IMG/VR virus record: IMGVR_UViG_3300030329_001726
Coordinates: 1-21,449 of that record
Source: a virus
Reading direction: 5' to 3' (one strand)
DNA length: 21,449 bases
Shown: piece by piece, positions 1,517 through 21,147 of the stretch
Position numbering within the stretch: position 1 is the stretch's first letter
Layout: every line of letters starts with the position of its first letter
Notes under the pieces: model-generated
Told to the model about the DNA's origin: nothing
Seen by the model: only the letters and a program-made list of their open reading frames with translations
Databases searched by the model: none
Made by a program: the position numbers and the translations under genes

Positions 1517-1902
1517 CCAACCAATCCAACAGGCTCTTCTTTTTTATCGCCTAATAATTCCCTAGCAGACTGTCTGTGGGTATAGGCTCCCATGCCAACC
1601 GCATCCAAACCGCCATCATGCACACTGGCTAACTGCTCCGCTGTATGAATATCGTTCGCTATTAACTTCGCCGCTAATTTTGGGCCAATTCCCTTAACAT
1701 CTGTTAGCGGCGTACCCTCAACAGGGTCAGGAGCATGTCCTTCAGAGAACGCCGCCCACTCTTTTGGGAACCGTTGTTTATGCTCTTCGCGCACCTTTGC
1801 GACACAGGTTGACGGATCTCCGACAACGCTGATTTCCACCAAAGTAGCAGAACCATTTGCTCTAGGCTCCTCGTAAAATTTAGCTCTTACATTGCCGTCC
1901 AT
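1513..1902 (-). CDS. Helix-hairpin-helix domain protein of the structural operon
   Basis: A 129-residue protein. Residues 64-95 contain LTDVKGIGPKLAAKLIAND, a classic helix-hairpin-helix with the GIGPKLAAKL hairpin, followed by HTAEQLASV. HhH motifs bind DNA backbones without sequence specificity. The N-terminal 60 residues look like a small beta-alpha unit (VEISVVGDPSTCVAKVREEHKQRFP) that I do not recognise. The start overlaps the preceding stop as TAATG, and its own stop overlaps the adaptor start as ATGA. Similar HhH proteins occur next to adaptors and capsid genes in phages, where they may be head-completion or DNA-end-contacting proteins. That role is inferred; the motif is clearly visible. 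Confidence 0.7.
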   Translation of the reverse strand: MDGNVRAKFYEEPRANGSATLVEISVVGDPSTCVAKVREEHKQRFPKEWAAFSEGHAPDPVEGTPLTDVKGIGPKLAAKLIANDIHTAEQLASVHDGGLDAVGMGAYTHRQSARELLGDKKEEPVGLVG

Positions 1903-2027
1903 TATGCTTTCCTCGTTTTTGGTTTTGAATTTGCCCTACGCCGCTTTATAGCCGCCGCCATTTTCTTGCCCTTCTTCGTATATGGAAGGTGAACCGTTTT
2001 ACCCGTTGACGTTTTAACTTTTGGCAT
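1902..2027 (-). CDS. Small highly basic phage protein
   Basis: A 41-residue protein starting MPKVKTSTGKTVHLPYTKKG and ending in a lysine/arginine-rich tail (KRRRANSKPKTRKA). The start at 2027 is preferred because the minus strand reads AAAAGGTAATAAA before the ATG; the longer frame to 2084 would run back through the promoter. Short proteins with the 'PYTKKGKK' pattern are common between structural genes of marine and alphaproteobacterial phages. Their function is unknown; the charge suggests binding to nucleic acid or to the packaged genome. It is the first gene of the leftward adaptor transcript, just downstream of the divergent promoter region 2044-2077. Confidence 0.65.
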   Translation of the reverse strand: MPKVKTSTGKTVHLPYTKKGKKMAAAIKRRRANSKPKTRKA

Positions 2028-2043
2028 TTTATTACCTTTTCTA

Positions 2044-2077
2044 TTGACAGTTAGATTATAACCAGTTATATTATAAC
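2044..2077 (+). promoter_or_regulatory. Consensus sigma70-type promoter with palindromic operator over the -10
   Basis: TTGACA (2044-2049), a 17-nt spacer and TATATT (2067-2072) form a near-perfect promoter for the gene at 2101. The -10 is embedded in the inverted repeat GTTATA-T-TATAAC (2065-2077). TTATAACCA occurs twice as a direct repeat (2056-2064 and 2071-2079), 15 bp apart, which suggests a second binding site. The same layout recurs at 20111-20145. A protein bound at the palindrome would block the -10; which protein does so is unknown. Confidence 0.75.
2055..2075 (-). promoter_or_regulatory. Leftward -10 candidates for the 2027 to 1 genes
   Basis: On the minus strand, TATAAT occurs at 2060-2055 and again at 2075-2070, each preceded by GGT or a similar G-rich step (TGGTTATAAT for the first). 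No good -35 is visible, so this would be an extended-10 type promoter. Use of the 2060-2055 hexamer would start a transcript about 20 nt before the ATG at 2027. It is needed because a strong minus-strand terminator at 2797-2823 cuts this block off from the capsid transcript. The same palindrome would then regulate both directions. Confidence 0.45.
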
Positions 2078-2100
2078 CATACACAGACAGGAGAGAGAAG

Positions 2101-2274
2101 ATGATCCGTTACGAAGTAAAAACCCCGCACAAAACATTCGCTGGCTGCGAAGGCACTATCGAAGAAGCCAAAGCATACATTAACGCCTTAACCGACGCTG
2201 GCGTTGAAATCCTCAACGTCGAGTACTTTGACAAAGATCAGCGCATCGCAGACATCCGCGCTGGCAAGGTTTAA
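2101..2274 (+). CDS. Small hypothetical protein, first gene of the 2.1-2.8 kb rightward island
   Basis: A 57-residue protein starting MIRYEVKTPHKTFAGCEGTI. It has alternating strand-helix-strand character: an N-terminal strand, a helix EEAKAYINALTDAG, then VEILNVEYFDKDQRIADI. The start is set by AGGAGAGAGAAG directly before the ATG, the same extended leader used by several right-side genes. The promoter at 2044 lies 28 nt upstream. I do not recognise the family. It is small and acidic, with a compact alpha/beta look that would suit a regulator or an anti-host protein expressed early; this is a guess from context. Confidence 0.7.
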   Translation: MIRYEVKTPHKTFAGCEGTIEEAKAYINALTDAGVEILNVEYFDKDQRIADIRAGKV

Positions 2275-2297
2275 CCCGCCAGATAAAGGAGATTATC

Positions 2298-2555
2298 ATG
2301 GCCCATTTTCTTCCCCGCCACCCTTCCATTATAGAGCGTTTTGACGTTGCCACGGATTTAGTTCCGCTTGGCACAGGTGAGCGTCATGCTCCTACATTTG
2401 GAGAGGCCAAGGCTAACGCCATCCGCACAATGAAAGCGGAAAAAGCCATCGCTTCTGTTACCGCCATTGCCCTTCGCGCCAATGACGATCTGGAGTTAAT
2501 TGAGTTTGGCCCACGGGGTAGAGCCACAACTCTCTGGAATTTTACCACGGGTTAA
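2298..2555 (+). CDS. Small hypothetical protein of the rightward island
   Basis: An 85-residue protein starting MAHFLPRHPSIIERFDVATD. AAAGGAGATTATC precedes the ATG, so the start is well supported. The middle is helical (GEAKANAIRTMKAEKAIASVTAIAL) and the end is beta-like (DDLELIEFGPRGRATTLWNF). There is no signal peptide, membrane segment or cysteine motif. It lies 23 nt after the previous gene and just before a GC hairpin with a T-run. Function is unknown. Its orientation opposite to the flanking capsid and adaptor genes is its main distinguishing feature. Confidence 0.7.
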   Translation: MAHFLPRHPSIIERFDVATDLVPLGTGERHAPTFGEAKANAIRTMKAEKAIASVTAIALRANDDLELIEFGPRGRATTLWNFTTG

Positions 2556-2584
2556 TATTTAACCCATCGCGTTCATCGCCGCTT

Positions 2585-2608
2585 CCCCGGATACCGCGCC
2601 GGGGTTTT
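2585..2608 (+). terminator. Rightward intrinsic terminator candidate
   Basis: CCCCGG (2585-2590) pairs with CCGGGG (2599-2604) across an 8-nt loop and is followed by TTTT. The T-run is short, so it is probably leaky, and a further small gene follows at 2635. It would lower readthrough from the 2044 promoter. Confidence 0.5.
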
Positions 2609-2634
2609 GCGGTGTAAACTCTAGGAGAAAAACA

Positions 2635-2796
2635 TTGGATATTCAGAAAATCAGAACCGACCTAAAAAATAGTGGCGATAAGCACCTTGTTAGTTTGGAA
2701 GCCACCTTTTCCGATGAGCAACTTGTACGCCTTGCCGACGCCTTTAATAAAACTGACGGCACTCCCGAAGCAGTTATTAAACGCCTCGCAAGTTAA
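2635..2796 (+). CDS. Small hypothetical protein with TTG start
   Basis: A 53-residue frame read from TTG at 2635, with TAGGAG placed 7 nt upstream. The product begins MDIQKIRTDLKNSGDKHLVS and continues with SDEQLVRLADAFNKTDGTPEAVIKRLAS, a short all-helical protein. There is no ATG in frame at this end, but the spacing of the Shine-Dalgarno and the amphipathic helices support coding. It ends at the base of the leftward terminator. It is probably the third gene of the rightward island, beyond the leaky hairpin at 2585. Function unknown. Confidence 0.5.
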   Translation: MDIQKIRTDLKNSGDKHLVSLEATFSDEQLVRLADAFNKTDGTPEAVIKRLAS

Positions 2797-2823
2797 AAAG
2801 AAAGGGGGGCGCGAAGCCCCCCT
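2797..2823 (-). terminator. Strong leftward terminator of the capsid transcript
   Basis: On the minus strand an 8-bp stem AGGGGGGC/GCCCCCCT (2803-2810 with 2816-2823) closes a 5-nt loop and is followed by TTTCTTTTT. It lies just after the stop of the 2830-3285 gene. On the plus strand no T-run follows, so it acts leftward only. Confidence 0.8.
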
Positions 2824-2829
2824 AACTAA

Positions 2830-3285
2830 TTACCAAGGAAAGTCGCAAGCAACTTCCTTGTCCGATATATCACCCGCAATCGCGCAGACGTTATCCGTCA
2901 CCGCCGCAGATACATCCAACGTACCGTCAGAAGAACCCGTGGGAGTGAGAGGATCACCATCCGCACCAGCGGTTAGGGCTGTGGTTAATGTCGCTGGCCC
3001 TTTAATCTGAATCCAGCAATATTCACCGTCACCCGGTGCCGACTGAAGAACACCCGCACCGATCTCAACAGAGTCGGACAGGTCAGAAGTTACCTGATTG
3101 TTCTTATAGCCATCTAGCGTGTAGTAGTAACACACGTTTCCTGATGCAGCCGCAACACTACCCGACCCTGTATCGTACAGGACGTATTTGTAGATTTTAT
3201 TGGTTCCATCGCTAGTACCCAACTGCCCAAGCAGAAATTCCGCTGAGGTGTGGACGGCGGTTTCGTCAATACCGACTTGATACAT
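2830..3285 (-). CDS. Capsid-associated small protein (decoration/stabilising protein candidate)
   Basis: A 151-residue, beta-rich acidic protein lying 12 nt downstream of the major capsid gene and last before the terminator. Recognisable stretches are GDGEYCWIQIKGPATLTTAL, TAGADGDPLTP and the C-terminal SDKEVACDFPW. These resemble small proteins that follow the capsid gene in many podo- and siphophages and are thought to decorate or stabilise the shell. AAGGGGGC before the ATG supports the start. No membrane segment or signal. The decoration role comes from position and the compact beta content; a head-fibre base is an alternative. Confidence 0.62.
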   Translation of the reverse strand: MYQVGIDETAVHTSAEFLLGQLGTSDGTNKIYKYVLYDTGSGSVAAASGNVCYYYTLDGYKNNQVTSDLSDSVEIGAGVLQSAPGDGEYCWIQIKGPATLTTALTAGADGDPLTPTGSSDGTLDVSAAVTDNVCAIAGDISDKEVACDFPW

Positions 3286-3297
3286 AACAAAGCCCCC

Positions 3298-4251
3298 TTA
3301 TGCTACTATGACGCCTTGGCGCGCCCGGTTGGAGACGGTCATATTCCCCGCCCATACAACTGGCATTACCATAGCATCTTGGTTGACAGAAGCCTTCTCA
3401 CCCAAAGGCACAAACTCACGACCCTTCGCAGGGCGCACGAACAGATAATCCGTGTTGAGCATGTACATATGTGTGGTAGGCGATTGATCGTCGTAAAACA
3501 CCGGGGCATCCATAAACATTAAGTTCATGAATCCAGCCGCAGCATTACGATCCGAAGCAAACCGCTGATTGGTTTGCAAGCTCGACCAGTAATATTTGAA
3601 ATAGGTCGAGTCAGCCGTGATTACGTCTGGCTTGTCCGCACCACGAATGGTGTTTAGCCAAAGCGTGTTCATAGCATCTTGAATCGTAGTGGCCGAAGCC
3701 GTGACGCTCTCACCAGAGAAATCATAGAACTGATTTTTCCACCAAGTGTACGTCGAGGAGTTGATGCCACCAACAGTACCAGTGCCCGCATCAGCCACAA
3801 GGCTTTGCAGACCACCGATTTCTTTACCGCTGGTTCCCGTGCCGTCCGCATACATTGCGGTAGCGACGGTGTTTTTAAGCGACTTTTCAAGGTTTTTGAT
3901 ACGCGACTTGAGAAGGTTGTGAATCGCTTCGCGACCACTGTTTTGTACTTCTTCAAGACCCGAAATCACTACGTTGCCAGCCAACTGCTTATAGTTGAAC
4001 TCAGCCGCGCTGAAAACATCGCTTGGTGACGTGTCCAGAGCTTCATACCCACTATACCACTTTGTGGTAGCATTCGTGGTGTATTCTAACTCTTGGACGA
4101 TTGTGCGCCCGGTGGCGACTTGCTTGTTGCCTTTCTCGTCCATATGTCGGAGCAAGGCATTATGGTTCGTAACGTTATCCGCAAGCTGTTTAGAATATCC
4201 TTGCAGAGTAGTTGTTACGATTTCCGTAAACGATGAGTTGGGTGAAGCCAT
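3298..4251 (-). CDS. Major capsid protein
   Basis: About 317 residues, starting MASPNSSFTEIVTTTLQGYS. I prefer ATG 4251 to the GTG at 4260 because AGGAG lies 8 nt upstream of the ATG. The middle segment LWLNTIRGADKPDVITADS followed by YFKYYWSSLQTNQRF is typical of a large group of phage coat proteins. The C-terminus VMPVVWAGNMTVSNRARQGV completes the HK97-type fold. There is no protease or delta-domain gene nearby; a separate scaffold gene lies directly upstream in transcription, so the shell is probably built on a scaffold without cleavage, as in P22/T7-like phages. Place in operon: scaffold, capsid, decoration candidate, terminator. Confidence 0.88.
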   Translation of the reverse strand: MASPNSSFTEIVTTTLQGYSKQLADNVTNHNALLRHMDEKGNKQVATGRTIVQELEYTTNATTKWYSGYEALDTSPSDVFSAAEFNYKQLAGNVVISGLEEVQNSGREAIHNLLKSRIKNLEKSLKNTVATAMYADGTGTSGKEIGGLQSLVADAGTGTVGGINSSTYTWWKNQFYDFSGESVTASATTIQDAMNTLWLNTIRGADKPDVITADSTYFKYYWSSLQTNQRFASDRNAAAGFMNLMFMDAPVFYDDQSPTTHMYMLNTDYLFVRPAKGREFVPLGEKASVNQDAMVMPVVWAGNMTVSNRARQGVIVA

Positions 4252-9428: not shown

Positions 9429-9756
9429 TTAACTGAATATTCACTGCCACGTTACCAGCGTGTTCCGTTACATTGGTTTCTTTCCAGCCCATCCGTGTCT
9501 TGGCCCAGAATATTGCCGCTGACGTGTCTCCGTTGACCGCCTTGTTAAATAGCGTCCCGCCTATCTTCGCATTGGCCTTTGTCGCCGCTGTATCCAATTC
9601 CTTACGGAAATGCTTTCTCAGCGTCTTGTCATCAATGCCATCACGGATGACCATCGCTATATTAGACTGCGGTATGCCCACCGCCGACATCTGTTCAACC
9701 AGCTTCCGCTCTTCGTCCGTTGGCTTAAACGCTGGCTGGCCCTTACTACGCGGCAT
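9406..9756 (-). CDS. terS: Terminase small subunit
   Basis: A 116-residue protein. Residues about 15-50 form a helix-turn-helix (DEERKLVEQMSAVGIPQSNI followed by AMVIRDGIDDKTLRKHF), then a helical oligomerisation segment (AATKANAKIGGTLFNKAV) and the conserved SAAIFWAKTRMGWKE. That pattern is typical of TerS proteins paired with PBSX-type TerL. It recognises the packaging site and loads TerL. It overlaps the upstream methyltransferase stop by 11 nt and TerL by 23 nt. The pac/cos site is often inside or beside terS, but I saw no distinct repeats here that mark one. Confidence 0.85.
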   Translation of the reverse strand: MPRSKGQPAFKPTDEERKLVEQMSAVGIPQSNIAMVIRDGIDDKTLRKHFRKELDTAATKANAKIGGTLFNKAVNGDTSAAIFWAKTRMGWKETNVTEHAGNVAVNIQLNAVKSKN

Positions 9757-10978
9757 CAGCTTTTATAGACGGGAAGTATTGACCGCTATCCTCCAGCTTT
9801 GCCTTTTCACCCGTAAAATCTTGCCACCGTTTTGTAGCTACATCAACGTAGGCAGGGCTTAATTCCATTGCGTAAATACAACGCCCGGTCATCTCTCCCG
9901 CTATGATTGTTGTTCCGCTACCAGAGAACGGTTCATATACGGCCTGACCGGGGCTTGAGTTATTCTCTATGGGACGCTTCATACACTCAACAGGCTTTTG
10001 AGTGCTGTGGCCTGTTTCTGATTTTAACGGTTTATTGATGTCCCATACTGTTGTTTGCTTTCGGCCCCCTACATAGTGACCTTTTTTATTTTTACGAACC
10101 GCGTACCAGCACGGTTCATGCTTTGGATGATAGTCTCCCCGGCCTATAACAATGTTATTCTTTGCCCATATTATTTGGGCGCGAATATTAAACTCGTTTG
10201 CCTCTAGGCTTTCAGCAACTATGTGCGCTTTGTTTCCCGCATGCCAAACATAAGCAACATCACCAGAGAATAATGCCCATGCATCTGACCAATCTGCCTG
10301 ATTGTCATTTTCTACTTTGCCAATAGCCCTGCCCCCCACGGCTTGGCCATTATTTCGCACTGCTTGATTTCTCCAATTTGCATCATAATTTACGCCATAA
10401 GGCGGGTCGGTCACCATTAAGTGAGGCTCCACACCCGCTAACAGCTTTGTGACGCTCGTCTCGACAGTGCTATCGCCGCACATCAATCTGTGCTTTCCCA
10501 ACAACCAAACGTCACCCTCTTTTGTAACAGGCTCGTCAGGTAGGTCAGGCACCTCGTCGGGGTCGGTTAAGCCTTCATTCTTGTCTGCAAGTATCGCCGC
10601 CAGTTCGTTGTCATCAAAACCAATCAGCGAGAGGTCGAACCCTTCCTTGTCTAAGTCCCCCATCTCTAGGGAAAGCATCTCCATATCCCAACCCGCATTT
10701 AACGCCAGTTTATTGTCTGCAATGACATATGCTTTGCGTTGGTTTGGAGTCAGGTGCGCCAATTCAATGGTTGGCACTTTATCCAGGCTGAGTTTCCTTG
10801 CCGCTAGGACGCGCCCATGTCCCGCTATGATGCCCCCCGTTTCGTCAACAAGCACAGGGTTATTGAACCCGAACTCCTTTATAGACGCGGCTATTTGTGC
10901 CACCTGTGCGTCATCGTGTGTTCTTGAGTTAGAGGCATAAGGGATTAACCCTGCAACCTCTTTGTCGATTACTTCCAT
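9746..10978 (-). CDS. ParB-domain / DNA N4- or N6-methyltransferase fusion
   Basis: A 410-residue two-domain protein. Residues 1-95 form a ParB/Srx-like domain (LIPYASNSRTHDDAQVAQIA; ASIKEFGFNNPVLVDETGGI; GHGR at 53-56; VIADNKLAL). Residues 155-390 are an amino-methyltransferase of the beta order: the catalytic DPPYG at 191-195 comes before the AdoMet-binding FSGSGTT at 351-357, with GHSTQKP at 323-329 between them. It should transfer a methyl group from S-adenosylmethionine to adenine N6 or cytosine N4. Such fusions are common next to phage terminases. Likely roles are protection from host restriction or marking of packaging DNA. No cognate endonuclease is visible in this window, so it looks like an orphan enzyme. 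AGCGGAGTAGTT precedes the ATG. Confidence 0.92.
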   Translation of the reverse strand: MEVIDKEVAGLIPYASNSRTHDDAQVAQIAASIKEFGFNNPVLVDETGGIIAGHGRVLAARKLSLDKVPTIELAHLTPNQRKAYVIADNKLALNAGWDMEMLSLEMGDLDKEGFDLSLIGFDDNELAAILADKNEGLTDPDEVPDLPDEPVTKEGDVWLLGKHRLMCGDSTVETSVTKLLAGVEPHLMVTDPPYGVNYDANWRNQAVRNNGQAVGGRAIGKVENDNQADWSDAWALFSGDVAYVWHAGNKAHIVAESLEANEFNIRAQIIWAKNNIVIGRGDYHPKHEPCWYAVRKNKKGHYVGGRKQTTVWDINKPLKSETGHSTQKPVECMKRPIENNSSPGQAVYEPFSGSGTTIIAGEMTGRCIYAMELSPAYVDVATKRWQDFTGEKAKLEDSGQYFPSIKADAA

Positions 10979-14674: not shown

Positions 14675-14693
14675 GCGTAACAAATTGTAACGC
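14675..14693. promoter_or_regulatory. Operator O1 of the immunity region
   Basis: GCGTAACAAATTGTAACGC is an inverted repeat with eight of nine pairs matched around a central A. It lies 8 nt upstream of the Cro-like start codon. Related copies lie at 14738, 15075 and 15103. Confidence 0.72.
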
Positions 14694-14716
14694 GCAATGC
14701 AACAAGAAAATTGCTA

Positions 14717-14757
14717 TTGACTCAAATCGCCAGATGCCATAAACAGTTTGTTACGCG
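14717..14757 (+). promoter_or_regulatory. Promoter of the XRE repressor gene with operator O2
   Basis: TTGACT (14717-14722), a 17-nt spacer and TAAACA (14740-14745) form a promoter for the rightward XRE gene. The operator copy at 14738-14756 (ending TTTGTTACGC) covers the -10 and start region; it matches the reverse of O1 at 13 of 19 positions, almost all in the right half. The gene's product would thus control its own synthesis. Confidence 0.62.
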
Positions 14758-14788
14758 ACAACAACAAAAGGTAGAAGGGCCGACAGTC

Positions 14789-15055
14789 GTGATAGCCTCT
14801 TTAACTACGATAGAGTACCGTGTCGAAATGGCCGACAAGAAGTTCATGGTAGCGTTTGCAAAACGGCTCACTGCATGCCGTATCGCTGGCGGCTACGAAA
14901 ACGCCGCAGACCTTGCCGCCGCTTTAAATATTCCACCGCATACATATAGGCGATACGAACGGGCTGAAGTACTTCCAGCTTATGACCGCCTTAATGAAAT
15001 AGCTCGACTTACTAAGTCGGACTTTCATTTTCTCGCCACCGGGGAAAATAATTAA
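14789..15055 (+). CDS. XRE-family phage repressor (CI candidate)
   Basis: An 88-residue protein from GTG 14789, with AGAAGG 10 nt upstream; ATG 14828 (MADKKFMVAFAKRLTACRIA) is the alternative and begins at the HTH domain itself. A longer frame from TTG 14711 would begin inside the promoter and is rejected. The domain reads ENAADLAAALNIPPHTYRRY followed by ERAEVLPAYDRLNEIARLT, a standard XRE helix-turn-helix. There is no LexA-like peptidase domain, so induction by RecA-dependent self-cleavage is not expected. It lies between operators O1/O2 and O3/O4 and probably binds all four. Whether it acts as the maintenance repressor or as a second Cro-like factor cannot be decided from sequence. Confidence 0.72.
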   Translation: MIASLTTIEYRVEMADKKFMVAFAKRLTACRIAGGYENAADLAAALNIPPHTYRRYERAEVLPAYDRLNEIARLTKSDFHFLATGENN

Positions 15056-15064
15056 ACTTTTTAT

Positions 15065-15094
15065 TTGACTTCTCGCGTTACAATTTGTTACTGT
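15065..15094 (+). promoter_or_regulatory. Rightward early promoter with operator O3
   Basis: TTGACT (15065-15070) is followed after 18 nt by a weak -10, TACTGT (15089-15094). The operator copy at 15075-15093 matches the reverse complement of O1 at 17 of 19 positions and fills the spacer. This would be the repressor-controlled promoter of the rightward operon that carries the recombination genes. Confidence 0.6.
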
Positions 15095-15102
15095 CTCCTC
15101 AT

Positions 15103-15121
15103 TAGTAACAGATTGTTCCTG
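15103..15121. promoter_or_regulatory. Operator O4 of the immunity region
   Basis: A weaker copy around GTAACAGATTGTTCC, in the same orientation as O1, 9 bp after O3 and just before the GGAGAGAGAG ribosome site of the 15131 gene. Close pairing with O3 suggests cooperative repressor binding. Confidence 0.5.
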
Positions 15122-17877: not shown

Positions 17878-18195
17878 ATGGACATAGATAAAGCAAGCGA
17901 TAACGCATTAGAAAAAGCGGTCAAAGCTGCCGAATTGGATGGGGCTGCGCGGATGCTGGAAGAAATGAAAAAGATTCTTTTGTCCGAACTGGCTAACCAA
18001 TCTGGCGAAAGTAGCGTTGCCGCAGCGGTACACTGGGCGCAAAAACATGAAAAGTTTAAAACGCATATTACCGAAATGGTGACGGCCAGAACCGCAGCTA
18101 ATATTGCCAAGGCCGAATGGGAAGCTACCCAAATGCGGTTTGAGGCATGGCGAACAAAACAAGCAACCCACAGAGCAGAGATAAATTTACGATGA
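17878..18195 (+). CDS. Conserved phage protein of the recombination operon
   Basis: A 105-residue, almost wholly helical protein: AELDGAARMLEEMKKILLSE, then HWAQKHEKFKTHI and a charged end with MRFEAWRTKQATHRAEINLR. The MRFEAWRT.QA..RAE ending is found in similar small phage proteins near erf/recT genes, where no function is known. It starts 9 nt after ssb. No cysteines or membrane segment; a coiled-coil partner of the recombinase is plausible but unproven. Confidence 0.65.
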   Translation: MDIDKASDNALEKAVKAAELDGAARMLEEMKKILLSELANQSGESSVAAAVHWAQKHEKFKTHITEMVTARTAANIAKAEWEATQMRFEAWRTKQATHRAEINLR

Positions 18196-18389
18196 CGAAC
18201 TGGGGGAAAATTATAAGGGAGTGCAGAGAAGATGCTGGCATGTCGCAAGAGGAAGCTGCGAACGCCGCTGGCCTATCACCGACATGGTTGGGATCACTTG
18301 AACGAGGAAACCAACGTAATCCGACAGTTCATAGACTTGAGCGAATCCTTGATGTCTACGGTTATGATTTGGAAGCGATACAGCGGTGA
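18192..18389 (+). CDS. XRE-family HTH regulator
   Basis: A 65-residue protein from ATG 18192, overlapping the previous stop as ATGA. The whole protein is one helix-turn-helix: IIRECREDAGMSQEEAANAA, GLSPTWLGSLERGNQRNPTV, HRLERILDVYGYDLEAI. It matches classic Cro/C1-type DNA-binding domains. It is the third HTH gene in the window and lies at the end of the rightward operon, before the integration genes, so it may control excisionase and integrase or the island promoters at 2044 and 20111. Targets are not visible from the sequence. Confidence 0.82.
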   Translation: MTNWGKIIRECREDAGMSQEEAANAAGLSPTWLGSLERGNQRNPTVHRLERILDVYGYDLEAIQR

Positions 18390-20110: not shown

Positions 20111-20145
20111 TTGAGGTTATATGCTAACTAGGTTATATTATAACC
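20111..20145 (+). promoter_or_regulatory. Second consensus promoter with the same palindromic operator
   Basis: TTGAGG (20111-20116), a 17-nt spacer and TATATT (20134-20139) form the promoter of the 20167 gene. The -10 lies in GGTTATA-T-TATAACC (20131-20145), a perfect 7-bp inverted repeat. An extra GGTTATA half-site is at 20115-20121, one step of 16 bp upstream. It is the twin of the promoter at 2044, including the GGAGAGAGA ribosome site that follows. Confidence 0.75.
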
Positions 20146-20166
20146 ATAGCAACAAGGAGAGAGAAA

Positions 20167-20490
20167 ATGCAAGCTACACCAATCGAACTTTATAATGCCG
20201 ACGGTGACTCAATTATGATGCCAGCCAGTTTAGGTATTTGCCCGACGTGCCAAGGCAAAGGCGTTCAAGCCTTACACGGCGCGGCGTTTACGCATGAGCA
20301 ATTTTCCGAATGGCATGGCGATGAGCGCGATGCTTATTTTCGCGGTGACTACGACACAAAGTGCGAAACGTGCAACGGCACCGGGCGGGTTTCTGTTCCT
20401 GATCGCTCACAGTGGACCGACGCTGAACTGCAACAGTATGAGAACCAACAGAGTGAAGCGTCTAGTTGGGAATCACGGGTTGGGGCATAG
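20167..20490 (+). CDS. DnaJ-type zinc-finger-like small protein
   Basis: A 107-residue protein, first gene after the 20111 promoter. C25-x2-C28 (CPTCQGKG) and C66-x2-C69 (CETCNGTGRV) are a pair of CxxCxGxG motifs, as in the zinc-binding region of DnaJ, joined by a loop of about 35 residues. The C-terminus is acidic and disordered (TDAELQQYENQQSEASSWES). AAGGAGAGAGAAA before the ATG fixes the start. Phages often carry single CxxCxGxG modules; roles in protein folding or nucleic-acid contact are possible but not shown. Confidence 0.7.
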   Translation: MQATPIELYNADGDSIMMPASLGICPTCQGKGVQALHGAAFTHEQFSEWHGDERDAYFRGDYDTKCETCNGTGRVSVPDRSQWTDAELQQYENQQSEASSWESRVGA

Positions 20491-20539: not shown

Positions 20540-20731
20540 ATGTCCAACATTTTTGAAACCCCAAAAAAATATGCGATTAAACTTTACGAAAGAGGTTTGA
20601 GAGCTACCAAAGGATATGACTCAAGGATTATCATTTTTGAACTGAGGAAGTATCACGCCACTTACGATTACACGGTTGAGGTTCTGAACGAGCTTGAAGA
20701 ACTTGAATATGTAAACGAACGAACGGCATAG
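20540..20731 (+). CDS. Small hypothetical protein
   Basis: A 63-residue protein, MSNIFETPKKYAIKLYERGL and onward, with AAGGAGAGAGAAG directly before the ATG. Helices with FELRKYHATYDYTVEVLNEL and a final EELEYVNERTA could form a small helical bundle. The gap of 49 nt from the previous gene carries only this ribosome site. No family recognised. Confidence 0.65.
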   Translation: MSNIFETPKKYAIKLYERGLRATKGYDSRIIIFELRKYHATYDYTVEVLNELEELEYVNERTA

Positions 20732-20742
20732 GGAGAGAATAA

Positions 20743-20907
20743 ATGAAAGTCAAAATTGAGTTCACCGTCGAAATCGATCCAGATGCCTGGATTTTAAATT
20801 ACGGCTGCGAACCGCATCAGGTTCGTGATGATGTGAAAAGCTATTGCCGGTACGGCGTTTTCGGTCAACTTGAACATGTCGGTGTTCTAAAAGAAACGGG
20901 AGAGTGA
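20743..20907 (+). CDS. Small hypothetical phage protein
   Basis: A 54-residue protein with GGGAGAGAATAA before ATG 20743. The sequence starts MKVKIEFTVEIDPDAWILNY and continues DDVKSYCRYGVFGQLEHVG. The layout 'V.IEF.V..DP.AW...Y......VR.DV..Y......L...G' is common to small phage proteins of unknown function. Strand then helix, compact and acidic. Confidence 0.65.
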   Translation: MKVKIEFTVEIDPDAWILNYGCEPHQVRDDVKSYCRYGVFGQLEHVGVLKETGE

Positions 20908-20979: not shown

Positions 20980-21147
20980 ATGGCTGCTTTATCAAACCCT
21001 GAGAAACAAACGGCGTATTACAACCGTCAGAAGGAGAAGGGATTGCGTAAAGAGTGCGTCTATATCCCTGATACTGAAGAGGCCAAGGAGTCGCTTAGAA
21101 AACACGCGGCCAAGCTGGTGAAAAAACAGGCCAAAGAGTCAACATGA
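20980..21147 (+). CDS. Small RHH-like regulator candidate
   Basis: A 55-residue protein read from ATG 20980 after a G-rich ribosome site (GGGGGGGAGTG). It begins MAALSNPEKQTAYYNRQKEK and continues GLRKECVYIPDTEEAKESLR, ending in a lysine-rich helix. The pattern 'EK...Y..RQK.KGL....V.IP....E.LR..A..L' is that of small ribbon-helix-helix-like phage proteins: a short strand (KECVYIP) followed by helices. As the last gene of the cassette with the palindromic promoter it is one candidate for the operator-binding protein. The fold is inferred. It meets the leftward holin gene tail to tail, with no gap at 21147/21148. Confidence 0.6.
   Translation: MAALSNPEKQTAYYNRQKEKGLRKECVYIPDTEEAKESLRKHAAKLVKKQAKEST

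Follow-up and report, generated by a model that had tools for sequence, protein, structure and literature searches.

Several described systems resemble, in different respects, the locus analyzed here. A moron is an inserted element with its own promoter, flanked by two genes that adjoin each other in related phages, and usually but not obligatorily differs from its surroundings in base composition (PMC4378225); the acr genes of Mu-like Pseudomonas phages lie in a region of genomic plasticity (PMC4378225). The acr-aca operons have near-consensus -35 and -10 elements and a core promoter that harbours one or two inverted repeats (PMC9410906), and encode small variable cargo followed by a small regulator in the last position, a logic of burst and subsequent shut-off (PMC9410906). 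In IncQ plasmids, UrfF/RepF is a proven autorepressor that acts on the operon encoding it by binding to promoter P4 (PMC6201506, PMC2200642). The establishment regulon of plasmid p576 (EGeRS2, Reg-p576) consists of one repressor gene and several promoters with a common operator (PMC8708921), and its highly variable operons are transiently expressed on entry (PMC8708921). Lastly, the early anti-defence regulon of SIRV2, with Aca8, comprises dispersed, variable early genes that share one conserved strong promoter sequence (PMC11065993).

The window considered here, that is, the entire 21,449-base virus fragment that was analyzed, contains leftward structural genes and a rightward block with an integrase; the source phage is temperate. 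The leftward genes encode a tail protein (phrog_6013), an HHH-domain protein, a capsid-associated protein (so labelled from the position of its gene only), the major head protein (phrog_9953) and others towards the terminase. As originally predicted, this block is interrupted by three ORFs on the + strand, isl1 (2101-2274), isl2 (2298-2555) and isl3 (2635-2796), hereafter the island. The GC content of the island (0.44-0.52) shows no shift relative to the neighbouring genes (0.49-0.51), and an Rfam search of positions 1900-3300 yielded no family. We propose, with a probability of about 0.6, that the island and a second variable cassette at the right end of the window are the two sites of a single accessory regulon, controlled by a UrfF-like autorepressor, the product of the gene denoted r4.

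The status of the island as an insertion is apparent from the comparison of gene order among the closest relatives by capsid (78-90% identical), 55 of which extend across the junction of the capsid-associated gene with the HHH gene. The relatives do not all carry the same genes at this position: the flanking genes adjoin each other in nearly all of them, and the island is absent from 54 of the 55, the exception being L006. In 46 of the 55, the boundary consists of only 46-94 bp; longer regions are found in nine of the closest relatives, eight of which have no counterpart of the island. Among the longer boundaries that were inspected, that of L005 has a 41-aa gene, separated by a gap of 57 bp and 100% identical to the 41-aa gene of the window, and the others are occupied by leftward genes of 84, about 70 and 178 aa. 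Because three or more leftward genes of the above sizes replace the 41-aa gene in L003, L004 and L006-L012, this boundary is variable on both strands.

The antisense island of L006 has the same promoter as that of the window, an unrelated first gene (66 aa), no second gene and a third gene that is 45-50% identical to isl3. The island-less L008 and L009 share 97.7-97.9% identity with L006 on the capsid side and 88-94% beyond, yet L006 has about 508 bp of island in the same interval against 8-9 bp in the other two. A third version, in the partial contig L089, combines new genes of 70 and 117 aa with a third gene 97% identical to isl3. Thus, in the window, L006 and L089, the first genes of the structural-site islands differ whereas the last gene and the promoter are constant. 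At the DNA level, the segment 2579-2739, which covers a hairpin and isl3, is 98.8% identical to L089, compared with 72% in the adjoining backbone, which argues for recombination of the hairpin-isl3 module. The empty site in L008 and L009 reads CTATTGA-AACCCGCCA-AAAGAAAGG, and AACCCGCCA is also found at the end of isl1 (about 2272-2280 in the window), possibly a scar of island loss.

The proteins encoded in the island are small, and none of the three produced a significant match in Pfam, NCBIfam or PADLOC. The first one, isl1 (57 aa), is a variable cargo gene detected as an ORF, for which no homologue was found and which has no counterpart in L006 or L089; its best hint is a match to Pfam DUF6555 below the cut-off (E=0.009). 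Its position, behind the conserved promoter and a ribosome-binding site, AGGAGAGAG (2089-2097, + strand; repeat family D1), of the same type as in the right-end cassette, supports isl1 as a real gene. The isl2 product (85 aa) matches phrog_15793 (E=7.6e-12) and has relatives 37-55% identical in Yuavirus-type phages, although a search of viral_contigs found none; in Yuavirus LKO4, a related gene family is located upstream of the terminase genes, which would fit, short of proof, an early role. AlphaFold modelled isl2 alone with low confidence (pLDDT 67). The last gene, isl3, encodes 53 aa from a TTG start. The roles in superinfection or host modification that the original prediction had suggested for these proteins are possible.

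A consensus promoter belonging to the island itself had been predicted, and the sequence agrees: on the + strand, a -35 element TTGACA (2044-2049) and a -10 element TATATT (2067-2072) are separated by a 17 bp spacer (promoter 2044-2072), with 11 of 12 consensus matches, and the same predicted promoter precedes the islands of L006 and L089. What had not been noticed are two tandem palindromes of the form GTTA-N5-TAAC that cover the spacer and the -10 element. These putative operators, identified by a palindrome scan and a weight matrix, are GTTAGATTATAAC in the spacer (operator 1, 2050-2062) and GTTATATTATAAC over the -10 element (operator 2, 2065-2077). Furthermore, 54 bp of this promoter region recur at 20116-20169 with 80% identity (E=1.2e-6), at a second copy of the promoter (20111-20139, + strand, TTGAGG-17-TATATT) with putative operators at 20116-20128 and 20132-20144. 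In the promoter alignment, the GTTA and TAA(C) half-sites are kept at both operators.

The recurrence and the tandem operators exceed what chance would produce. A tandem-operator score of at least 30 was reached in 0 of 100 Markov windows; in a weight-matrix scan of 718 kb of relative and comparison loci, the L006 island was the only match at the set threshold; and a degenerate pattern comprising the -35 element and two palindromes was found in 6 viral contigs and in 1 contig among 84,980 genomes. A blastn search with the promoter against named phages returned only weak matches (E of 0.5 or more).

The second promoter, which like the regulon and its candidate repressor was no part of the original prediction, drives, by prediction, a right-end cassette. 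The cassette consists of four + strand ORFs: r1 (20167-20490; 107 aa), a variable cargo gene with a DnaJ-like CXXCXGXG motif and weak zinc-motif matches; r2 (20540-20731) and r3 (20743-20907; 56% identical in G003), further cargo; and r4 (20980-21147; 55 aa), which encodes a UrfF/RepF-like putative autorepressor and is the invariant final gene of such cassettes. G001 has a variant of the promoter, followed by different genes (76, 91 and 399 aa) and then by r4 at 87% identity; L106, L108, L109 and L111 add to the variety of cargo in r4 cassettes, and both of the cassettes present in L091 contain the promoter together with an r4-like gene. Both sites of the window therefore show the same plan, variable cargo followed by a constant last gene specific to the site, isl3 at the structural site and r4 at the right end. 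The structural-site island lacks r4, which is placed last in its cassette, as a downstream small regulator would be. A toxin-antitoxin operon was considered and rejected since the cargo is not a fixed pair: the genes before r4 and isl3 are unrelated between relatives and vary in number.

The promoter is present at every locus with an r4 homologue for which enough upstream DNA is available (L107 and L110 end 363 and 497 bp upstream of the homologue). Among the 45 relative records, r4 was found in five, all of which have the promoter, a co-occurrence that may in part reflect shared descent of the right-end cassette. The competitor for the role of regulator is the XRE protein encoded at 18147-18389, or else an unseen gene located in the part of the genome that is missing, with r4 only a frequent cargo gene of the two-site regulon. 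The XRE protein clearly belongs to the helix-turn-helix type, and G042 and G045 have it along with the promoter; however, searches for its DNA-binding domain found none in G001, G002 or G051, although the promoter and r4 are both present there, and the G003 homologue differs in the helix-turn-helix part even though the operators of G003 are identical to those of the right-end copy in the window. The search matches in G001-G003 include a leader that is common via an overlapping frame. The XRE protein does not track the promoter and is disfavoured as the regulator; we regard control by this protein, or by an unseen gene, as rather improbable. The XRE gene overlaps the preceding gene, and in relatives a different helix-turn-helix domain follows the shared leader in the same place.

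The affinity of r4, the preferred candidate, came to light through profiles: tblastn with r4 against phages and plasmids yielded nothing at the set limits, and Pfam nothing convincing, in particular no helix-turn-helix match. The NCBIfam family UrfF (plasmid repression protein F) was matched with E=5.6e-5, at 23 bits against a cut-off of 100, and hhalign against five UrfF proteins gave E=6.9e-8 and a probability of 94.6, from shallow alignments; judging by these similarities, r4 appears to be a weak relative of UrfF/RepF. AlphaFold models r4 (pLDDT 84, pTM 0.43) as an extended stretch flanked by two helices, with no paired ribbon; Foldseek found no match to the model, and a search of PDB sequences with r4 only designed or unrelated chains. 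With two helices and no fold match, the model does not support a ribbon-helix-helix fold. In L092, an inovirus-like contig with a Zot-type gene that is binned in a Cytophagales genome, operators of the GTTA-N5-TAAC type precede a gene scoring above the Pfam cut-off for ribbon-helix-helix proteins; the tandem promoter and several more sites of this type surround that gene (2275-2640 of L092).

The promoters of UrfF plasmids provide a further parallel. A search with the RSF1010 F protein matched 105 records at 99% or more, and most of those listed carry a urfF annotation; a literature search for UrfF returned no relevant paper. Palindromes of the form [AG]TTA-N4-TAA[CT] lie over the urfF promoter in eight of nine UrfF plasmid stretches, which represent only a few lineages, and nowhere else in 12.9 kb; the RSF1010-type stretch (L123) itself has no GTTA/TAAC palindromes. 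Given GTTA-N5-TAAC at the r4 loci, promoters of related proteins in phages and plasmids bear similar half-sites. In this plasmid set (L123-L131, IncQ-like and TrfA-type), the palindromes over the promoter of the urfF operon are paired 24 bp apart and likely represent the RepF operator. The geometry differs between the two groups, with an N4 spacer and 24 bp spacing in the plasmids compared with N5 and 15-16 bp in the phages.

Examination of the signals around the island modified the original prediction in several respects. The leftward terminator (2803-2823, - strand), proposed to close the capsid transcript next to the island, is real and closes the capsid-associated gene (8 bp stem at 2823-2803, U-tail, folding z=-4.0), but it belongs to the context, given that it is conserved in relatives without the island. 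The predicted rightward hairpin also exists (2585-2608, + strand; CCCCGG-N8-CCGGGG-TTTT), and its 3' part is common to L006 and L089; it stands, however, between isl2 and isl3, has only four T, shows no unusual stability on its own (z=-0.3) and did not pass the terminator scan, and is at most a weak terminator or attenuator. The idea that the adaptor genes use a leftward promoter of their own next to the island finds no support and was rejected: the minus-strand TATAAT motifs, which arise because the operators are palindromic, have no -35 element, the best candidate being TTCTCT (3/6, at 18 bp). The moron reading retains the insertion, the strong promoter of its own and the mosaic content, and loses the terminator and the adaptor promoter.

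The U-tail of the hairpin at 2803-2823 exists on the leftward RNA only. Rightward transcripts may thus read on past 2796, and one could imagine the island as an antisense regulator that tunes expression of the capsid-associated and capsid genes. We consider this highly improbable: the differences in isl3 fall mostly at third codon positions (23/14/34 at positions 1/2/3), as expected of a coding sequence, the cargo differs whereas the capsid genes do not, and the island is absent from nearly all relatives.

A more serious, although still unlikely, alternative is a classical lysogenic-conversion moron, steadily expressed from the prophage without control by r4 to the benefit of the lysogen, for example, through superinfection exclusion. 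The consensus promoter of the island, its insertion between genes that adjoin in relatives and the presence of an integrase all speak for this possibility. So does the immunity region, where four CI-like operators (14677-15119, consensus GTAACAANTTGTTAC) flank the repressor and Cro-like genes as a separate operator set; the consensus of the GTTA-N5-TAAC operators is unlike that of this set, and silencing of the island by CI would therefore not be expected. Two members of the CI-like set, at 14677 and 15074, form a perfect inverted repeat pair of 18 nt, and four matches at 3 mismatches are obtained also in 5 of 100 shuffles. Steady expression is, however, at odds with tandem operators over the -10 element and a promoter common to the autorepressor cassette, which predict repression in the lysogen. 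An autorepressed burst is favoured over steady lysogenic-conversion expression because the promoter is shared with the cassette of a likely autorepressor and the operators are unlike the CI-like ones; judged from these sequence features, the locus points to a burst on entry. Elsewhere in the window, a ParB-like/DNA methyltransferase fusion (9746-10978) is 69.5% identical overall to its counterpart in L103 (558-1796), with strong divergence in the middle part that looks like an exchange of the specificity part.

Under the two-site regulon model, each cassette would comprise a strong sigma-70 promoter, tandem palindromes over the spacer and the -10 element, cargo and a constant last gene. The small UrfF/RepF-like protein r4 would bind DNA and repress its own promoter and, in trans, that of the island. 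On entry into a repressor-free cell, both cassettes would fire at once and, as r4 accumulates, both would be shut off. The cargo would most likely be exchanged by recombination and serve early in host takeover or against host defences, although known anti-defence genes include no relative of any cargo gene.

How the locus relates to the known systems can now be specified. With acr-aca operons, it shares small variable cargo and near-consensus promoters, both of which in the window have two palindromes over the spacer and the -10 element; it differs in that r4 is UrfF-like and falls outside the ten helix-turn-helix Aca families, the cargo has no known Acr relative and one repressor apparently serves two loci. 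The likeness to IncQ UrfF/RepF lies in a small protein encoded in the operon that it represses (repression by r4 being predicted), in the profile similarity and in the GTTA/TAAC half-sites over the promoter in several plasmid lineages; UrfF/RepF, however, acts on the replication genes of plasmids rather than on accessory genes of phages, and is about 32% identical to r4. A single repressor, a common operator, variable operons and transient expression on entry link the p576 regulon to the two-cassette model, but p576 is a conjugative Bacillus plasmid with a ribbon-helix-helix repressor and an unrelated operator (TTATCCC heptamers beside the promoter). The SIRV2 regulon likewise comprises dispersed variable genes recognized by one conserved strong promoter, albeit in an archaeal virus with archaeal promoter elements and a winged-helix regulator. 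As a promoter-bearing insertion between genes adjacent in relatives, the island resembles a moron; it departs from one in having several genes, no clear rightward 3' terminator, no shift in base composition and an apparent regulon operator.

Beyond the regulon itself, we tentatively suggest that temperate phages recruited a plasmid-type UrfF/RepF autorepressor as an Aca-like master repressor of a dispersed regulon of plug-in anti-defence genes, with one site antisense between the capsid and adaptor genes, and that the tandem GTTA-N5-TAAC promoter may serve as a new bait for such genes. If this is the case, a new type of repressor with a precise operator would be added to the acr/aca-like principle, and a single phage repressor would serve two separate variable cassettes. 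Candidate anti-defence genes could then be collected by means of a short DNA motif, with r4 as a marker gene, and the reversed island among the structural genes would be explained as an optional, separately controlled unit.
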